Virus record (IMG/VR): IMGVR_UViG_3300047354_000991
Location: 1 to 21,740 of that record
Direction: 5' to 3' (one strand)
Source: a virus
DNA: 21,740 bases
Below are positions 14,334 to 21,740 of this stretch, one piece after another (within the stretch, counting starts at the first letter, position 1; each line of letters opens with the position of its first letter). The position numbers and the translations under genes were made by a program. The notes under the pieces were generated by a model. That model saw nothing but the letters and a program-made list of their open reading frames with translations, did no database searches and was not told the DNA's origin.

Positions 14334-14678
14334 TTAACCTAAAAGATTTTTCATTTTACCAACCAGCGTTGATTGTTTTTCTCTACGATCAAACTCAACA
14401 CCATGTTGTCTACCCAATGCCTCTAGCTCAACTTTACTCATTTCATCCAATGATGTATTATTCATAGGCGCTTCGTTTAATTGTTGAGCATTATTTTCAA
14501 TTTCTGCTTCTTCCATTATGGCTTCCATATCAATTTTTGGTTTAGCCGGAGCAGGTGCTGAAACACCATGCCATGCGTCAATATCACTTTGTGAAATTCT
14601 TTGTGATTTTAACAACTCGCCAGACTTAGGATTAATCCAACCCCTAAGGGTTGGTACTGAGTTTTTAGGACCCTTCAT
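14334..14678 (-). CDS. Small phage protein with C-terminal SAP/LEM-like motif
   Basis: A 114-residue protein. I start at the ATG at 14678 (MKGPKNSVPTLRGWINPKSG), which has GAGGAA about 8 nt upstream; the frame could extend ten codons to 14708, further into the previous gene. The N-terminal GWINPKSGELLKSQRIS block is conserved-looking. The middle is a Pro/Ala linker and acidic region. The last 35 residues (DEMSKVELEALGRQHGVEFD, RREKQSTLVGKM) look like a helix-extended-helix of the SAP/HeH/LEM type, used for binding DNA or for protein contacts. It sits between structural-region genes and is unassigned. Confidence 0.7.
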   Translation of the reverse strand: MKGPKNSVPTLRGWINPKSGELLKSQRISQSDIDAWHGVSAPAPAKPKIDMEAIMEEAEIENNAQQLNEAPMNNTSLDEMSKVELEALGRQHGVEFDRREKQSTLVGKMKNLLG

Positions 14679-15576
14679 TTTCTGTTTCCTCTTCAACCTT
14701 TGGAACATTCATTTCAGCATATGCATTTCTCATATTTTGAATTGATTGTGCAAATGAAACTGATTCAGCTTTCATTGCAGCAGGATCTTTCATTGGAGTA
14801 CCGGGGGCAACAATTTTTGTATCACCCTTTGGGTTATCACCTTTACGTTTTGCTGCAACCTTAACATTTGATGTCATTTTTTCAAAGTTCTTTTTATCAA
14901 TCTCTGGCTCATTTAGATGAGCATCAGGGCCTTTAGCAATCTCTTTATCAGCATCGGCCATCATGTCTTCTGCACCCTTACCTTTACGCATGTCTTTCAT
15001 GGTTTCGGTAGGACCAGCTTTTTCATAATGTTTATCTCTTGATTCAAGGACTGATTTTAAAGCAGTACGAATCTTTGATTCCTTCTGCTCTTTCTTTTCA
15101 GAGTCCATTTTTGGATTCATTTCAACATCACCTTCTTTTCCACCACCCTTAGCTTCTTTTTTCTTTTTTCCAGGAACTGGTTTAGCGCCCATGGCTTTAT
15201 CTTGCCGCTTAATTTCCATGTCTTTATAGTAACCTTCTTCCGTTTTATCTTCATCCATGGCTTTGCTAATTGCTTTTCTACGCTTGTGTAGATATTTGTC
15301 AGAAGAGTCGGTATCGCCATCATTATCGATGTCTTTATCTTTACGATCCTTGTGCTTACCTTTTAATTCTTTTTTATCCACAGGATCCATTGCTTCTTTT
15401 GTTGAGGCAATCCAATTTTTTCCATTGGGATCCTTTGATTCATACTTGCATGATTCAGATACAGGTTTACCGAATTTATCACCACATGATTTGCATACCA
15501 TGCCTTCACATTCTTTTTCGGTTCTCTCTTGGACCGTTTCTTGAGTGGCCCCACTCTTAAAAGGATTAAAATCCAT
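14665..15576 (-). CDS. Charged protein with Cys4 cluster and EF-hand loop
   Basis: A 303-residue, highly charged, low-complexity protein. The start at 15576 (MDFNPFKSGATQ) has AGGAGAA 7 nt upstream; a longer frame to 15618 overlaps the previous gene. Near the N-terminus four cysteines (C23, C28, C31, C43) could bind zinc. Residues 82-93 (DIDNDGDTDSSD) match an EF-hand/dockerin loop exactly at positions 1, 3, 5, 6, 9 and 12, followed by KYLHKRRKAISKAM. The remainder is Lys/Glu/Met-rich and probably disordered. It lacks the N-terminal [LI]-x-E pattern of the six genes upstream of it. Probably virion-associated, unproven. Confidence 0.72.
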   Translation of the reverse strand: MDFNPFKSGATQETVQERTEKECEGMVCKSCGDKFGKPVSESCKYESKDPNGKNWIASTKEAMDPVDKKELKGKHKDRKDKDIDNDGDTDSSDKYLHKRRKAISKAMDEDKTEEGYYKDMEIKRQDKAMGAKPVPGKKKKEAKGGGKEGDVEMNPKMDSEKKEQKESKIRTALKSVLESRDKHYEKAGPTETMKDMRKGKGAEDMMADADKEIAKGPDAHLNEPEIDKKNFEKMTSNVKVAAKRKGDNPKGDTKIVAPGTPMKDPAAMKAESVSFAQSIQNMRNAYAEMNVPKVEEETENEGS

Positions 15577-15586
15577 AATTATTCTC

Positions 15587-15865
15587 CTAAGTAAAATATT
15601 GAGCCACATACGCTCCAACCGCTGCGATTAAAGCGGCATATACAAGTTTATTTATAAGACATACGGTACGATGATTTTCATCTACCTTTTTTTCGATATC
15701 ATCTAATTTTATAGACAATCTGTTTACACGTTCAATTTGATTTGTTTGAAAATCTTGCATTGCAGCAATCTTTTCTTCAGCCCGTGCCAAAGATATCATT
15801 GCTTGTGCCAATTGATCTATCTTTTCTTCAATTCGATCTAGTCTACCATTAGTTGTATCAGGCAT
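15587..15865 (-). CDS. Coiled-coil protein with C-terminal membrane helix
   Basis: A 92-residue protein starting MPDTTNGRLDRIEEKIDQLA; an ATG four codons upstream (15877) is possible, but 15865 has GGA 7 nt before it and overlaps the previous stop as TAATG. Heptads run through residues 8-65 (RIEEKIDQLA, IKLDDIEKKVDEN), and residues 70-90 form a membrane helix (LVYAALIAAVGAYVAQY). The layout resembles XhlA-type phage membrane proteins and small coiled-coil proteins found in T4-like marine phages. Holin-like or virion roles are both possible. Confidence 0.72.
   Translation of the reverse strand: MPDTTNGRLDRIEEKIDQLAQAMISLARAEEKIAAMQDFQTNQIERVNRLSIKLDDIEKKVDENHRTVCLINKLVYAALIAAVGAYVAQYFT
15649..15656 (-). 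promoter_or_regulatory. Possible T4-type late promoter octamer
   Basis: The minus strand reads CTTATAAATAAAC with the late consensus TATAAATA, about 73 nt before the ATG at 15576 and inside the coiled-coil gene. The flanking CTTATAAATAA is identical to that at 2980-2987. Support is weak because the octamer is short and the region AT-rich. Confidence 0.25.
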
Positions 15866-16509
15866 TAGCATTTCCATCTTCTACGCGCTTGGCGTAATCT
15901 ACTGTTTGGATTATTAGCTGCCTTAGGAAATTGTTTCATCTGACCCGCGCTACGAGCACAGTATGATTTCCTACGACCAGCTGCTTTACTACCAGGTTTT
16001 ACTTTACCAGTAACGGCTGTTTTTAAATTACCACCTGTTTTTCTATTATAGGCAGCAACACCTTTTTGCGTCATGCCGGCACCCTTTTCAGTAGCACGAA
16101 AATGTCCCTTTGAATCCTTACCAGTAAGTTTCTTTTCTGATACCTCATCTATTGCAGTGCTAGCAGCTAAGGATGTACCCTGTTTATTTGCTTTTCTTTT
16201 ATCTGCCCGAGCTTTTGTATCTTTTGCTAATTGCGCGGATTTACCTACAGCAACCCTAAGATTAGGTAGCTTTTTATCTTGCTGAGTCATTTCATCAACT
16301 TCTTTACCCTGAGCTTTAGCACGGTACATTTTCTTTACAGCATGTTTTGTTTGCCGTTCAACAGATTTAATTAAGGATGGTTGTTTAACCAATTTTCTCA
16401 GGTGGTTTTTTACCTGACCAGGTGAGTTACCAGCCATAAAAAGTGAAGGAAGTCCTTCAACTTCAACCTTAAATGTCATATCCTCGCAAAAAGATTTAAA
16501 AGATTTCAT
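15865..16509 (-). CDS. Basic protein with C-terminal DUF6321-like domain and CTS-like start
   Basis: A 214-residue, very basic protein. The start MKSFKSFCED has aromatic residues at 4 and 7 and F7-C8-E9, resembling T4 internal-protein targeting sequences. The middle is Lys-rich. The C-terminal ~70 residues (GAGMTQKGVAAYNRKTGGNL, ARSAGQMKQFPKAANNPNSR, then RQARRRWKC) match what I know as DUF6321 of marine phages. It contains KxTGxxLKTAVTGKVKPGS and a cysteine pair, C193 and C214 approximately; function unknown. AAGGT lies about 8 nt before the ATG. It belongs to a six-gene coupled set. Confidence 0.75.
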   Translation of the reverse strand: MKSFKSFCEDMTFKVEVEGLPSLFMAGNSPGQVKNHLRKLVKQPSLIKSVERQTKHAVKKMYRAKAQGKEVDEMTQQDKKLPNLRVAVGKSAQLAKDTKARADKRKANKQGTSLAASTAIDEVSEKKLTGKDSKGHFRATEKGAGMTQKGVAAYNRKTGGNLKTAVTGKVKPGSKAAGRRKSYCARSAGQMKQFPKAANNPNSRLRQARRRWKC

Positions 16510-16510
16510 C

Positions 16511-17191
16511 TTATTTACCTTGTGCTCTTTTTAATGCATCTTGAGTTGGTGCACCCTTTTCGCCTGGTTTACGCATGCGCTCACCTCTAGCCTTTTTAGC
16601 CCTAATGTTTGCCCATAATCCGGCACCTTGTTCATCAACATTGGTGGTTTCTTTATGAACTCTATGGTCCTTACCCATTTTAGTAGCATGTGCAGTGGCT
16701 TTTTTCAGATCACCACCGAATGATTTAGCCGGACCATCCTTTTTACCATTAGTATATTTCTGTACTTGGTAGTTTTCAACTGCACGTGCAATGCCTTTAC
16801 GACGATTAACAAATTTATTAACTGCTTTGTCCATTTTACCATCGCCACGCTGAGCTCTAGCCATTCTGTCTGCCTGTTTACTCATATCATCTGCAGCTTT
16901 TTTGATGTAACTCTTTTTAGTATCTTTAGAGATCTCATCAACCTGGGTAGCCTCCATTGACTTGACTTTCTTACGAGTACCCATGGATTTTGTATCAGGC
17001 TTGTCCATCATACCGTGCATACCTTTACCCGGATCATCTTTACCATGATAACCTTGAGCCTTTGCTGGTGGAAGTTTCTTAATCTTTCCACCTTTTGCTA
17101 GAAAAGCCTTGACTGCATCTGAGTCTTCTTTCTTTTCTTTTGCTTCATCAACGGTTTCTAAAGCTTCTCTTAATTGGAAAAATGTTTTCAT
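16511..17191 (-). CDS. Basic phage protein with CTS-like start, unknown function
   Basis: A 226-residue Lys/Met/Gly-rich protein. It begins MKTFFQLREALE, with F4, L7-R8-E9-A10, a good fit to T4-type prohead protease sites. It contains AFLAKGGKIKKLPPAKAQGY, a KKSYIKKAADDMSKQADRMA helix followed by KFVNRRKGIARAV, and a C-terminal GAGLWANIRAKKARGERMRK. These segments recur in marine T4-like phage proteins without known function. The composition fits a DNA-associated or head-internal protein. It overlaps the next upstream gene's stop by ATGA and ends 1 nt before the following ATG. Confidence 0.72.
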   Translation of the reverse strand: MKTFFQLREALETVDEAKEKKEDSDAVKAFLAKGGKIKKLPPAKAQGYHGKDDPGKGMHGMMDKPDTKSMGTRKKVKSMEATQVDEISKDTKKSYIKKAADDMSKQADRMARAQRGDGKMDKAVNKFVNRRKGIARAVENYQVQKYTNGKKDGPAKSFGGDLKKATAHATKMGKDHRVHKETTNVDEQGAGLWANIRAKKARGERMRKPGEKGAPTQDALKRAQGK

Positions 17192-17439
17192 TTTCTTACC
17201 TTTGCTGCCAGATCTTTATCTGCCTTACCCCATGTACCAGAAGATTTTGTTACGAATGAATTAACCCTTGCCATGCCCCATTGCTGTGGAGTTGTACCTG
17301 GTCTATGACCAGTTTTCCATGCCGCCATACCGCGATTATAGACTTTACGAAGAATACCTATAGGCATACCGGACTTTTCAGCTTTTGCTGCTAAACCTTT
17401 TTTCTCTTCTTCGGAAAGATATTGAGCAAATCTAATCAT
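17188..17439 (-). CDS. Small DUF5824-like protein with CTS-like start
   Basis: An 83-residue protein starting MIRFAQYLSEEE, which aligns residue for residue with the T4 internal-protein leader (F4, Y7, L8-x-E10). The rest is one compact domain: KSGMPIGILRKVYNRGMAAW then KTGHRPGTTPQQWGMARVNS, typical of the family I know as DUF5824 in marine phages, with no established function. AAGGAAAC stands about 5 nt before the ATG. It is overlapped by ATGA at both ends. If the leader is cut after E10, the product is a 73-residue basic domain. Confidence 0.78.
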   Translation of the reverse strand: MIRFAQYLSEEEKKGLAAKAEKSGMPIGILRKVYNRGMAAWKTGHRPGTTPQQWGMARVNSFVTKSSGTWGKADKDLAAKVRK

Positions 17440-18752
17440 TTTGTTTCCTTATTTTTCTTTTGAGTATCTCTCATACGCGCGCGATCCATCATACGATCAT
17501 GTTTGATTTTATCGGCTTGTTTTTCTCTTTCAATTCTTTTCTTTGCCATAGTCTGCATTTCATTTTCACCAAACATTTGTTTAAATCTTTTGGTGTGTAC
17601 ACTAGGTTTTGTTTTAGCATTAGCATCACCAGGAGCTGGTTTGTATGCCTTTGGGTTATCATCGGACATCTTTGCTTGCTTTTTAAATTGAGCATCACGT
17701 TTAATTTTAGTAGACTTTTTTAAACCTTTATGGTAATTAACAGGTTGACTACCTTTACGATCTCCAATATCTGGATCTTCTGGATTTTTTTGTTCTACAA
17801 TAAGATCATCTTGTGAAATGATATTTTCATCATCATATTGTTTTTTAGTTGAAAAATCTGCAACTGTAAATATCTCTGTTTGTTCACTCACACTTTGTGA
17901 AAAAGATGCGGTTTCATACTCAGGTTTCTTTTCGTCAACTCTTTCAATTGCATCTAACCATTTACGATACGTATTGCCGGTTCCTTCAACAATAACATAG
18001 TTAGAGCCTAGTCTTTGGATGGTACCAAGCTCGCCAGTGTCTTTAATGACTACCTGATCACCTTGTTTAAATAATTTACCATCAACATATGATTCTCTTA
18101 GTTCTGATATAGGATTTAATTGTAAATGATTCTTAAATTCTTTTTGCTCATTTAATCCTAATCCTTTTCTGACTGAATTAAAGAGTTTTCTTGCATCCGA
18201 ATTGCTAACCCTTTTCGGGAGACCTTGGGCAAATGATGTGAAGTCGTTCGATTTCGCTGCCTCACGCTGCTTTGTAGCACTCGCACCTTCCGAGCCCTCT
18301 GCATCCGGATCTCTCTGGCCCGCACTGACAACATTAATTTTTCTAAAGTTATAAAACCCATGCTTACCTTTTTTACCATTATATCTATTGATAAGAATAT
18401 CAAATTCATTAACACGATCAGAACCAACAACCATTGTAATATTAACATATCCTTCATCATAAAGAGCAGTTAACGCGTCAAAAACTGTTTTAACTTTTTT
18501 ATTTGACATAATGGATCTGGCATGTCTAGGAAACATTTTCCTTGCACTTTTTACTTTATCAGAATATTGCAATGGATTCTTTTTATTATCCTGTGTCTGT
18601 GACAAATATACTCTGTACACTGATGATTTGGATAAGGATGCCAATTTATCTAGTAGTTTCTCATGGCCAATTGTAGGCGGATTCATTCTGCCAAAGGTGA
18701 AAAATACTACTTTTTCTTCTTCAATTAAATATTTACTAAAAGAATTAATCAT
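17436..18752 (-). CDS. HIGH-type nucleotidyltransferase fused to a basic tail
   Basis: A 438-residue protein. Leader MINSFSKYLIEEE (L9-I10-E11). Then a cytidylyl/adenylyl-transferase-like Rossmann domain: GRMNPPTIGHEKLL at 21-34 (TxGH, nucleotide-phosphate site), VVGSDRVNEF at 108-117, and GASATKQREA at 156-165 (ISxTxxR-type motif). These enzymes transfer NMP from an NTP to a phosphate-bearing acceptor; the acceptor is unknown. Residues about 220-272 resemble an SH3/KOW barrel (KQGDQVVIKDTGELGTIQRL). The last ~130 residues are Lys/Arg-rich and likely disordered. The combination of leader, enzyme and basic tail parallels T4 Alt in being a possibly head-packaged enzyme. Both ends overlap neighbours by 1-4 nt. 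Confidence 0.82.
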   Translation of the reverse strand: MINSFSKYLIEEEKVVFFTFGRMNPPTIGHEKLLDKLASLSKSSVYRVYLSQTQDNKKNPLQYSDKVKSARKMFPRHARSIMSNKKVKTVFDALTALYDEGYVNITMVVGSDRVNEFDILINRYNGKKGKHGFYNFRKINVVSAGQRDPDAEGSEGASATKQREAAKSNDFTSFAQGLPKRVSNSDARKLFNSVRKGLGLNEQKEFKNHLQLNPISELRESYVDGKLFKQGDQVVIKDTGELGTIQRLGSNYVIVEGTGNTYRKWLDAIERVDEKKPEYETASFSQSVSEQTEIFTVADFSTKKQYDDENIISQDDLIVEQKNPEDPDIGDRKGSQPVNYHKGLKKSTKIKRDAQFKKQAKMSDDNPKAYKPAPGDANAKTKPSVHTKRFKQMFGENEMQTMAKKRIEREKQADKIKHDRMMDRARMRDTQKKNKETK

Positions 18753-19279
18753 TAACCTTTTTTCCGTGCCACTTCTTTTTTACGAACATCTTTATACATT
18801 CTGCGTGCCAACATTTTAATTCGTCTTTGCACAACTGGTTTTTCTAGACGTTTTTCTATCTCTTGCCTACGCGCAAAAGATAGATCACTTTTATCAATTC
18901 CTTTAGTTATTTTTTTAAGAATTAATTTACGAGCCGCTTTTTGTGATCTTCTTTTAAGAACATCAGGTTTTGCCATACGTCTTTTGGCGCGATCTCTACC
19001 TAATTTAATTTTGGATTTATATCTTCTAAATTGCCTGGATTTTGCTAGACGTTGTCTAATATCCAATGCTTCATCTGTTTCAACAGATTCACCAATTGGA
19101 CCACCTTCACCAGTACCAACACCAAATTTTCTACGGCGATACGCACGATAATTTGTTAGCTCATCCTCACCAGGACGATACTCAGTCTGATGTAAATCAT
19201 CAAATGATAATGGCTTTTGTTCTAGAGGTGACTGACCGTCCATCTCTAATAGGTCTTTAAAACGAAGCAATCTTGCCAT
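18752..19279 (-). CDS. Extremely basic conserved phage protein with CTS-like start
   Basis: A 175-residue protein. The start MARLLRFKDLLEMDG contains F7 and L10-L11-E12, a two-residue-shifted version of the leader seen in its neighbours. From about residue 70 it is dominated by Arg and Lys in helices (LAKSRQFRRYKSKIKLGRDR, KPDVLKRRSQKAARKLI, RRIKMLARRMYKDVRKKEV). The conserved middle (DEALDIRQRLAKSRQ) appears in many marine T4-like phages. The charge suggests nucleic-acid binding or condensation. GGAAGGAAC precedes the ATG. It might instead be an assembly factor; no family function is known to me. Confidence 0.76.
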   Translation of the reverse strand: MARLLRFKDLLEMDGQSPLEQKPLSFDDLHQTEYRPGEDELTNYRAYRRRKFGVGTGEGGPIGESVETDEALDIRQRLAKSRQFRRYKSKIKLGRDRAKRRMAKPDVLKRRSQKAARKLILKKITKGIDKSDLSFARRQEIEKRLEKPVVQRRIKMLARRMYKDVRKKEVARKKG

Positions 19280-19281
19280 CG

Positions 19282-20511
19282 TTAGTTCCTTCCTGGTTTA
19301 TCCCATCCCTTTAATATATTTGGTGAAAAGTTTGCGTATGAGAACTCCATACGGTCCACAATTTTCACTGCATCACCACCAAGTTTATCTATTGCAACAT
19401 AACCTTCTTGGCCTGTTGTGCGATATCCTTTATTAGTCTTTAAGAACGTCTGTACATTATTTAACTTATTAAGTATATTTATAAGTTTTAATTTTGCTAA
19501 AATAATGTATTTTTGTAAATCAAACATAAATTTTAATGATTTTTTATTCTCTGCAGAAAAAAATGAAAGTACTTCATCTAGTTTTGCTTGTTGTGCAGAT
19601 TTACCTTTTTCGGTTGACCGCTTAGATATTTCGGTACGGTATCTGCCTTTGATCCAAGATATGAGTTTATTGACATGTTGAGTTGTGTTTTGCACAACCT
19701 CACCTTTTCTAACATACGTGTTATTAAAAGTTTCAATTGTTTGAGCAAGTTTTTGATTCCTTTCAAGTTGACGTAAAGTAGTTCCACTAATTTTATTAAA
19801 TATTTTCCCGGCTTCACTTAATAGTGCATTTACTTCCTTAGTGTCTTTTTTTGACATAGTAAATTGAGTCATATCTCTTAACATTGCATCTTGAGACCAA
19901 ACGTTTTTGGACCTTTTTAACTTGGATACATCAACCCCAAATTTGTTTTTCATTCCTTCGAATGTTGATCCTGAATAGCTCGTATGCCATACAATTCCAA
20001 TTTTTGTTGACGTAACTTCCCTGGCCATGTCCGTCCCAGCCGGTATTGCATATACAATTGTATTAGGGTGAAAGGTAATATAGTCCTTACCTTTGATTTT
20101 AGTTTTTTTGACATCGCCAGGCCCATAGAGAAAATCACCTTGTATTACTCCTTTAATTCCTAATTCAGGTAAATACTGTAAAGCGAGTTTAAGTTTTGCA
20201 TTAAGATCGCCAGAAGTATCAGCATCAATATCAGCATTACTCTTGTATACTTTGGGAGATTTGTTAAAGATCCCTTTTTTCGCCACGAAGAATCGGCCAT
20301 CACTAGGATCAGTCCCAGCAAACACAGCAGGAGCACCATCCCATTTAACAGATACATTTCCATCGTGTTCTCCTCCTAACATATCTCTCATTGATCGTAA
20401 CGCCATTATAGCATCACGAGTTCCATTTACACCACCATAAAGAACTTTATCCTCGATGTGTGTCATATGAGTATTTTTTTGTTCTGTAATATAAGAACTA
20501 AAATTTTCCAT
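19282..20511 (-). CDS. Ligase-fold nucleotidyltransferase-like protein (DUF6267-like)
   Basis: A 409-residue protein. Leader MENFSSYITEQ (F4, Y7, I8-T9-E10). Ligase-superfamily motifs occur in order: motif I KWDG at 56-59 (K56 the candidate adenylated lysine), motif III-like GVIQGDFLYG at 121-130, motif IV EGYV at 369-372 and motif V VKIVDR at 382-387. Residues about 190-360 form a long helical insertion between III and IV, unusual for ligases. I associate this architecture with DUF6267 of marine T4-like phages, whose activity is not established. It could be a DNA/RNA ligase, a capping-like enzyme or a degenerate relative. It starts at the stop of the structural gene (TAATG). Confidence 0.78.
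   Translation of the reverse strand: MENFSSYITEQKNTHMTHIEDKVLYGGVNGTRDAIMALRSMRDMLGGEHDGNVSVKWDGAPAVFAGTDPSDGRFFVAKKGIFNKSPKVYKSNADIDADTSGDLNAKLKLALQYLPELGIKGVIQGDFLYGPGDVKKTKIKGKDYITFHPNTIVYAIPAGTDMAREVTSTKIGIVWHTSYSGSTFEGMKNKFGVDVSKLKRSKNVWSQDAMLRDMTQFTMSKKDTKEVNALLSEAGKIFNKISGTTLRQLERNQKLAQTIETFNNTYVRKGEVVQNTTQHVNKLISWIKGRYRTEISKRSTEKGKSAQQAKLDEVLSFFSAENKKSLKFMFDLQKYIILAKLKLINILNKLNNVQTFLKTNKGYRTTGQEGYVAIDKLGGDAVKIVDRMEFSYANFSPNILKGWDKPGRN
19476..19483 (-). promoter_or_regulatory. Possible T4-type late promoter octamer
   Basis: The minus strand reads CTTATAAATATAC with TATAAATA inside the 3' part of the ligase-like gene, 197 nt before the next ATG (19279). This is the weakest of the three octamers because of its distance from a start codon. 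Confidence 0.18.
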
Positions 20512-21314
20512 TAATCGTTATCCACCAAAATAATTGAAAAGTCCGAGGCTACTGTAGCATTCGATGCTCCATTTACTCTTAGATCAATATCTGTTTTTTC
20601 ATTAAATTTAAGAGGTACAGGAAAATCTAACTGTTGATTATTCTGATATAATGCCATTACCGTTTGTGAACGAAAGGCTCCACCGAAAGGTCTTGCAAAT
20701 AATGATAAAACAGTTTCTTGATTCTTAGATGCAGATGCATGAATATTCATCATATATCCAGTTTTTCCGGCCGGTACTGTATAGAAACATTGCAATGTTT
20801 GGCCATATCCTGCAGCAATTTCTGTTACTACAGTTGTTCCATTTTTTACAGATATTTTACCAACATTTGTATCATCATGCATGAAGGCACGATTGACTCT
20901 ATGAAATATAGTTGAACCTGCGACTGGTGATGTGCCTGTGAGTGTTAGTGTTTCCTCTACAAAATTATAATCTGTATCCAATCCTTGAATTGTAATATCG
21001 CCAGTGTCAGATCCCGAACCAGATACAGCTGTAATAGTATCAGCTACGGTGGCCCAAGGATAAAGGGCAGAGGTAGATGTATCTGCTGCAGTCCATACGG
21101 TAGACCAACCAGACCCAGAAGTGCCAAAGACTGCACCATATTTGTGCACACCAGCATATCCATCCAAATCTCCGGCCGCAATAATAACATTTGATGCTGC
21201 GCCAAATGTGTTAATAATATTGCCATCTTCATCAGAAATCATCACAACTTCGTGAATATCACGATTTGCATTTGAATGATAATGTCTACCTCTGCTTACA
21301 GAATATTGTGCCAT
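20511..21314 (-). CDS. Beta-rich virion structural protein
   Basis: A 267-residue protein starting MAQYSVSRGRHYHSNANRDI, then a Gly/Ser/Thr-rich beta protein with GDITIQGLDTDYNFVEETLT at about 104-123, HRVNRAFMHDD, a YTVPAGKTGYMMNIHAS block, and a C-terminal beta part ending FSIILVDND. The ITIQGLDxxYxxVEETLTLTGT and VPAGKTGYM blocks are typical of virion structural proteins of marine myo- and podoviruses. It has no leader of the [LI]-x-E type, unlike its downstream neighbours. It begins immediately after the upstream stop codon. Precise location in the virion is unknown. Confidence 0.78.
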   Translation of the reverse strand: MAQYSVSRGRHYHSNANRDIHEVVMISDEDGNIINTFGAASNVIIAAGDLDGYAGVHKYGAVFGTSGSGWSTVWTAADTSTSALYPWATVADTITAVSGSGSDTGDITIQGLDTDYNFVEETLTLTGTSPVAGSTIFHRVNRAFMHDDTNVGKISVKNGTTVVTEIAAGYGQTLQCFYTVPAGKTGYMMNIHASASKNQETVLSLFARPFGGAFRSQTVMALYQNNQQLDFPVPLKFNEKTDIDLRVNGASNATVASDFSIILVDND

Positions 21315-21740
21315 TTAAATTTTCACTCTAGGTTTAATTGTACCTTGGGTTACAGTCTGAATTTTAATATCTTTTCTATTTACTGATTTAATTGCCAAAA
21401 CATTACCGGCAGCATTACTCAACAATCTTACCTTTTCAACTGGATCATCCGGATCCAATTTTACACTGGCGTTATTATTAATAAAGATTACCGGGGTTGT
21501 TCCAAAATACACACCAGCTACTTTCGCATACTCATCTTCTATTTTTTTGTATTCTCTAGGATATGCCTTTTGGATTGCTTCTAGATTTTTAGGTCCAACT
21601 TCATTTTGTCCTTTACCAGCAGATTTTAGTCCTAATTCATTTTTTAATCTTACCAGCTCATTAACCATTTTACCTAATGCAGCAGTACCACCTAATTTAA
21701 ATCCATATACTGTTTTATCATTTGCAGAATATAAACTAGC
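21315..21740 (-). CDS. C-terminal part of a phage structural-region protein (partial)
   Basis: The frame is open from the right window edge: reading in from 21740 gives ASLYSANDKTVYGFKLGGTA, then ALGK before the internal ATG at 21668. The gene therefore almost certainly starts outside the window and the Met at 21668 is internal. It continues with a helical region (NELVRLKNELGLKSAG), AYPREYKKIEDEYAK, GVYFGTTPVIFINNN, VRLLSNAAGNVLAIKSV and a basic end (TIKPRVKI). I do not recognise a named family; similar C-termini occur in marine phage structural-region proteins. The stop is adjacent to the next ATG. Confidence 0.7.
   Translation of the reverse strand, partial: ASLYSANDKTVYGFKLGGTAALGKMVNELVRLKNELGLKSAGKGQNEVGPKNLEAIQKAYPREYKKIEDEYAKVAGVYFGTTPVIFINNNASVKLDPDDPVEKVRLLSNAAGNVLAIKSVNRKDIKIQTVTQGTIKPRVKI

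Follow-up and report, generated by a model that had tools for sequence, protein, structure and literature searches.

A cassette of genes for probable capsid-targeted cargo proteins in a T4-like marine phage

The DNA analysed here, referred to as the window, comprises 21,740 bases (IMGVR_UViG_3300047354_000991) and is a fragment from a T4-like marine phage of the Kyanoviridae type. Judged by the genes discussed below, its closest annotated relative is phage C48C1 (Kyanoviridae, 156 kb), in which the DUF6267 protein is 63% and the cytidylyltransferase 54% identical to the window protein. The window contains a run of genes, tightly packed with short overlaps between neighbours, whose products share a short N-terminal leader resembling that of the internal head proteins of phage T4. 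An original prediction held that six consecutive genes carry this leader and encode cargo for the phage head. All six open reading frames are present on the minus strand at the starts claimed, every one of them an ATG, and their products begin MENFSSYITEQ (20511), MARLLRFKDLLEM (19279), MINSFSKYLIEEE (18752), MIRFAQYLSEEE (17439), MKTFFQLREALE (17191) and MKSFKSFCED (16509). In the same order, they are a DUF6267 protein, an orphan protein of 175 residues, a cytidylyltransferase/NMNAT-like protein, a DUF5824 protein, a mosaic protein of 226 residues, and a 214-residue protein with a C-terminal DUF6321 domain (Table 1).

The six proteins are as basic as had been proposed, with pI values of 9.6-10.7 and a net charge (K+R minus D+E) of +11 to +35, the corresponding charges for the three flanking genes named in the prediction being -11, -2 and +2. 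They were also described as otherwise unrelated. This holds in that they fall into distinct families, but PHROG contains fusions of DUF6267 with cytidylyltransferase and of cytidylyltransferase with DUF5824 (HTVC008M gp130). The limit placed on the block at 20511 has to be moved: beyond one leaderless gene lies a truncated gene that probably represents a seventh leader family, its homologues (in L025, L043, L046, L021 and L051) beginning MKKFNTYLKEMAM, MQRFRTYLKEMAAV and similar.

Table 1. Genes and predicted leaders of the cassette in the window.
Feature	Position	Strand	Database match	Remarks
C-terminal half of probable seventh leader gene	21315..21740	-		Cut by the window end
267-residue protein	20511..21314	-	phrog_8198	Leaderless; interrupts the cassette between DUF6267 and the truncated gene
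DUF6267 protein, 409 residues	19282..20511	-	Pfam PF19782, E 2.7e-105
DUF6267 leader, residues 1-10	20482..20511	-		MENFSSYITE; T4 register; predicted cut after E10
Basic orphan protein, 175 residues	18752..19279	-		Leader-like MARLLRFKDLLE; weak member
Cytidylyltransferase/NMNAT-like protein, 438 residues	17436..18752	-	phrog_3041, E 2.6e-78; PF01467
Cytidylyltransferase leader, residues 1-11	18720..18752	-		MINSFSKYLIE; predicted cut after E11
DUF5824 protein, 83 residues	17188..17439	-	PF19141, E 1.6e-18
DUF5824 leader, residues 1-10	17410..17439	-		MIRFAQYLSE; T4 register
Basic mosaic protein, 226 residues	16511..17191	-		Short-register leader MKTFFQLRE
226-residue protein leader, residues 1-9	17165..17191	-
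214-residue protein	15865..16509	-	PF19846, E 1e-12	FKVEVEGLP domain and C-terminal DUF6321
214-residue protein leader, residues 1-9	16483..16509	-		MKSFKSFCE; short register; F-C-E off the L/I consensus

In T4, the ten-residue capsid targeting sequence (CTS) directs proteins to the prohead through residues 4 and 7, while residues 8 and 10 govern processing by gp21, which cleaves after L/I-x-E (PMC9026906). All six window proteins have, as had been noticed, an aromatic residue followed by (L/I/F)-x-E within the first 12 residues. Aromatic residues stand at about positions 4 and 7 in the DUF6267, DUF5824 and 214-residue proteins, and are shifted by one in the cytidylyltransferase; the second targeting position is leucine in the 226-residue protein and also in the 175-residue protein, where it is shifted. 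The leader closes with L/I-x-E in four cases, namely I-T-E (DUF6267), L-I-E (cytidylyltransferase), L-S-E (DUF5824) and L-R-E (226 residues). Some relatives come close to the T4 start given in the prediction, MKTYQEFIAEA, an example being MKTYQKFITEKK on a cytidylyltransferase. At least five of these products bear an N-terminal sequence like the CTS of the T4 internal proteins.

Retention of the leader was scored among distinct relatives, with start codons picked without reference to the pattern. All 41 distinct cytidylyltransferase N-termini retain it, as do 50 of 56 for DUF6267, 34 of 43 for DUF5824 (21 of these in the strict form defined below) and 7 of 11 for the 214-residue DUF6321 protein, whose relatives begin MKSFKSFYEAM. 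The 226-residue protein was not part of this scoring; its leader recurs in relatives as MKTFDQLREE, MKTFFQLREG and MKTFFELRES. The two genes already singled out as the weakest fits deserve that description, the one at 16509 having F-C-E in place of L/I-x-E, and the one at 19279 belonging to a family in which just 2 of 30 distinct relatives keep the full pattern with its cleavage consensus. Domains are also exchanged behind different leaders: the C-terminal GLWANIRAKK module of the 226-residue protein is found elsewhere as separate leader proteins (MITFKKFISEKGPGLWANIRAKK), and other contigs have DUF6321 alone, placed directly after a leader.

Two patterns were used to compare these starts with chance. 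The loose one, [FY]xx[FYLI]xE or [FY]xx[FYLIVM][LIVMF]xE near the start, was tuned so that all six genes fit, and occurs in about 1.3% of internal windows in phage C48C1. The flanking genes had been said to lack the leader; in the scoring of distinct relatives described above, four flanking families have it in 1 of 25. Among the 28 other genes of the window there is one loose match (49-732, MIYDCYMGE, an FkbM-type methyltransferase by eye), judged to be a chance one. The strict pattern, [FYW]xx[FYW][LIVMF]xE near the start in the T4 register, fits three of the six block genes (20511, 18752 and 17439); inside the proteins of two genomes it occurs at a rate of about 0.0005 per window. Among the 206 proteins of C48C1 there are six strict matches, where 0.11 would be expected, and five lie at 57-69 kb, the region of its DUF6267 and cytidylyltransferase genes. 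When the C48C1 cytidylyltransferase (L001:23448-24857) is read from a GTG (63448) that lies 66 bases upstream of its annotated start, it begins (M)IKNFSQYLLEEE, so that the annotated protein has lost its leader.

The possibility that such starts are equally common elsewhere was examined in 294 IMG/VR loci with 3,441 called genes. The strict pattern is present at some near-start ATG in 325 of these genes, compared to 2 for the reversed motif; counting the first ATG only, there are 294 strict-tagged genes, whereas shuffling gives 4.5 on average and 15 at most. The tagged genes span 23 families. Since these loci had been retrieved by their homology to DUF6267 and the cytidylyltransferase, it is fairer to count the strict-tagged genes of the 20 further families, of which there are 73. 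Searches of other leader families against Pfam and PHROGs recognised no function. In relatives, variable leader proteins of 265-491 residues lie upstream of DUF6267 (L210, L246, L070, L026, L230, L018, L037 and L074); they have no Pfam match, and those in L074 and L037 look nuclease-like by eye.

Of 175 distinct leaders, 97% have F at position 4 and 93% have L or I at position 8; position 7 is occupied by F or Y. The strict pattern allowed any of LIVMF at position 8, so the preference for L/I was not imposed, and neither was that for F at position 4. At the level of families, L/I is found in 20 of 23 against a background of 60% (p 0.005), and F in 23 of 23 against 46% (p 2e-8). The conserved marine positions F4, F/Y7, L/I8 and E10 coincide with the targeting and processing positions of T4. 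A shared start could in principle reflect recombination joints or a regulatory element in the DNA at gene starts and not a peptide signal, which would suit the short gene overlaps and the modules shuffled behind leaders. However, the residues between the conserved positions vary freely, the motif moves by up to three codons, and synonymous codons differ at the conserved residues. The DNA-level explanation is rejected on this last ground, and we regard it as scarcely credible.

The same residues bear on whether the leader is cut. It could be a pure scaffold-docking tag, which holds proteins on the prohead core and stays uncut: in T4, Asp at position 10 blocks processing and leaves targeting intact (PMC9026906), the family of the 19279 gene retains just the RFKD part, and the starts in HTVC008M-like phages are degenerate. 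Against this, the 93% L/I at position 8 fits the protease consensus, and E10 is present in 55 of 55 DUF6267 sequences in an alignment made by the protein body and not by the pattern. We consider docking without cleavage unlikely. In an AlphaFold model of the DUF6267 protein, with alignment rows from the window and the IMG/VR loci only, the pLDDT is 84.7 and residues 1-15, comprising the leader, are disordered.

Cleavage presupposes a gp21-type protease (PF03420) in this phage, as the prediction had recognised. None is encoded in the window, a 21.7-kb fragment, but the family was found in five of the six relatives first examined (C48C1, S-CREM2 and, within the DUF6267 clade to which the window belongs, three out of four long contigs), and in 12 of 15 additional long contigs.

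Presence in virions, which the prediction required, is supported for the cytidylyltransferase, by orthology. Members of this family have been detected by others in the virions of S-SM1 (PMC3037559), S-SCSM1 (PMC9602691), S-CREM2 (PMC10665884) and S-SZBM1 (PMC9146016). All four are tagged, with the leaders MKKFSAFLNEA, MKSFLQFLKEA, MKNFSSFLTEA and MRFRQFIIEA respectively. The tag can therefore point to proteins carried by the phage. S-CREM2 virions further contain a SAM hydrolase (leader MKDFDSFLEEF), an APH-like kinase (MKRFDAFLTEEE) and a Cas9-like protein with RFASFMAEA from residue 18. Four of the five strict-pattern proteins of S-CREM2 were detected in virions (Fisher p 0.012, uncorrected for the three pattern versions tried). 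In S-SZBM1 the figure is one of three, a weak test in that 30 proteins were identified and about 45 genes lie outside the comparison. S-CRM01 has a parallel block, in which a kinase starting MISFDQFLSEK is followed first by MKKLDQFLTEK and next by a cytidylyltransferase (MKLFNQFFKEAE). For the other five block families the tag suggests that they too would be found in virions.

Alternatively, the leader might be a short amphipathic helix serving some other purpose, such as localisation to the membrane, the nucleoid or a replication complex, with virion detection being carry-over. Abundant proteins can persist through CsCl purification, and even a translational repressor of the RegA type is marked as a virion protein in the S-SCSM1 record. 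On the other hand, the conserved residues match the mapped T4 targeting and processing positions (PMC9026906), four independent virion proteomes contain the cytidylyltransferase, and the podovirus homologues examined are all untagged. Taken together, this makes the helix explanation very improbable.

The distribution of the leader among homologues is uneven. DUF6321 homologues in HTVC023P, HTVC010P, S-TIP28 and Eistla are leaderless, as is the DUF5824 homologue in podovirus HTVC202P; neither gp21 nor gp23 was found in eight contigs with leaderless DUF6321, these being 15-59 kb and possibly fragments. Leaderless DUF6267 proteins occur in P-HM2, S-SZBM1, S-CRM01 and S-SM1, and the one in S-SZBM1 (gp141) is outside the virion list of that phage (PMC9146016). 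Tagged and leaderless homologues thus coexist, implying that the tag is gained or lost on a protein and is not fixed to it.

Some further observations concern the virion proteins. A module of about 35 residues (~AKxxGLxxxGxGxWxDxxGxxVA) comes after the leader in several proteins, namely twice in the S-CREM2 kinase, in the S-SM1 and S-SCSM1 cytidylyltransferases, and partly in the S-CREM2 Cas9-like protein (loci L085:10579-12846, L112:24177-25340 and L113:28819-30048); it is possibly a second cargo module. The Cas9-like protein and similarly placed cyanophage proteins (L085, L095, L096, L097 and L098) start M(S/T)xSRWSxW and have the motif at residue 18-20, as if a conserved extension preceded the leader. 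The S-SCSM1 virion protein gp93 (L113:31626-31835) has a leader-like KKRTFKEFLEYIE at its C-terminus. Within the window, a leaderless neighbour of 303 residues (14665-15576) contains a KDxDNDGDTDSSDKYLHKRRKAI module like those of S-SCSM1 virion gp92 and S-SM1 gp191, and may reach the virion in some other way.

The pattern excess, the protease in relatives and the virion cytidylyltransferases together support the interpretation as a cassette of genes for T4-type capsid-targeted cargo in marine myoviruses, whose products are probably cut back by the prohead protease and may be injected; we give this a probability of about 0.83. By analogy with T4, the aromatic residues at about positions 4 and 7 would bind the prohead core, and the protein would in this way become part of the head; a gp21-family prohead protease would then cut after the glutamate of L/I-x-E and free the basic cargo among the DNA, and the freed cargo could leave the head with the DNA at infection.

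Several observations count against this cargo interpretation. No cleaved N-terminus has been observed to date. Most relatives of the 175-residue protein retain RFKD[LMI] without the cleavage glutamate, and the 19279 gene is therefore not counted as processed cargo. Enrichment of the loose pattern among S-CREM2 virion proteins is not significant (p 0.13), for which reason only the strict pattern is used above; many S-CREM2 virion-detected proteins of no known function have no leader; and contaminants are possible in CsCl-purified virions, as the S-CREM2 authors note (PMC10665884). S-SZBM1 gp191 (MKSFKSFLSES) and gp192 (MKTFKQYITEA) have perfect leaders and are outside the 30 detected proteins. 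HTVC008M-like phages have gp21 and leaderless cytidylyltransferases, so that the tag is not universal for this family. To these must be added the choice of the counting loci through cassette families.

As to what the cargo might do, polynucleotide ligases of the ATP/NAD-dependent superfamily are characterised by motifs I (KxDG), IV (EGxV) and V (KxV). The DUF6267 protein carries all three, K56-W-D-G59, E369-G370-x-V372 and K383-x-V385 being invariant in 51 sequences. A sequence search of DUF6267 against the PDB gave nothing significant, nor did hhalign against T4 Rnl2, and the best Foldseek hits of the model are unrelated folds (best E 0.085), with a DNA ligase adenylation domain at E 1.7; the ligase reading is accordingly drawn from the motifs. 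The cytidylyltransferase likewise had no significant sequence match in the PDB. An NMNAT-like enzyme has been suggested to act on host NAD levels (PMC9602691). A ligase activity of DUF6267 and an NMNAT-like role in host NAD metabolism are both leads.

The nearest known system is that of T4 IPI, IPII and IPIII, which likewise have a ten-residue leader with aromatic residues at 4 and 7, L/I at 8 and E at 10, basic cargo, variable genes and a gp21-family protease, here present in relatives of the window. The marine cargo differs in including putative enzymes and mosaic proteins, and in leaders that also use a short register, F-x-x-[LIF]-x-E, or are shifted by one residue; we infer their core binding, cleavage and injection from the T4 case. 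In other T-even phages, similar leaders precede basic proteins whose set varies (PMC9026906), whereas in ocean phage contigs the principle extends to 23 families or more. The cyanophage virion enzymes (PMC10665884, PMC9602691, PMC9146016, PMC3037559) belong to the same cytidylyltransferase family and bear the same leader, but are called virion-associated, some maybe carried, with no leader described in the parts of these papers used. Head proteins of phiKZ and SPN3US are also trimmed after glutamate by a prohead protease in head maturation, although the motif in phiKZ is S/A-x-E and the proteins are unrelated.

The targeting mechanism is already known, and its extension to marine enzyme cargo appears to be unreported: in the literature searched, which leaves most subscription journals outside, 'capsid targeting' and 'cyanophage' co-occur only via a reference list, and DUF6267 is not named. 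Cytidylyltransferase/NMNAT-like enzymes recur in cyanophage virion proteomes with their route of entry unexplained, and a T4-type leader supplies one. The leader connects four published proteomes, and a puzzle of proteomics becomes a sequence rule that can be checked on mass spectra already recorded. Gene starts annotated too far downstream, as in C48C1, are flagged as well, and some 20 further families, mostly without known function, become candidate virion cargo of abundant ocean phages. We lean towards the wider view that marine T4-like phages load a large and fast-changing set of host-takeover proteins by means of one short, portable head-targeting tag. This set would include ligase-like DUF6267 proteins, NMNAT-like cytidylyltransferases, SAM hydrolases, kinases and Cas9-like nucleases, and what a major group of ocean viruses injects might then be read from the starts of the genes.

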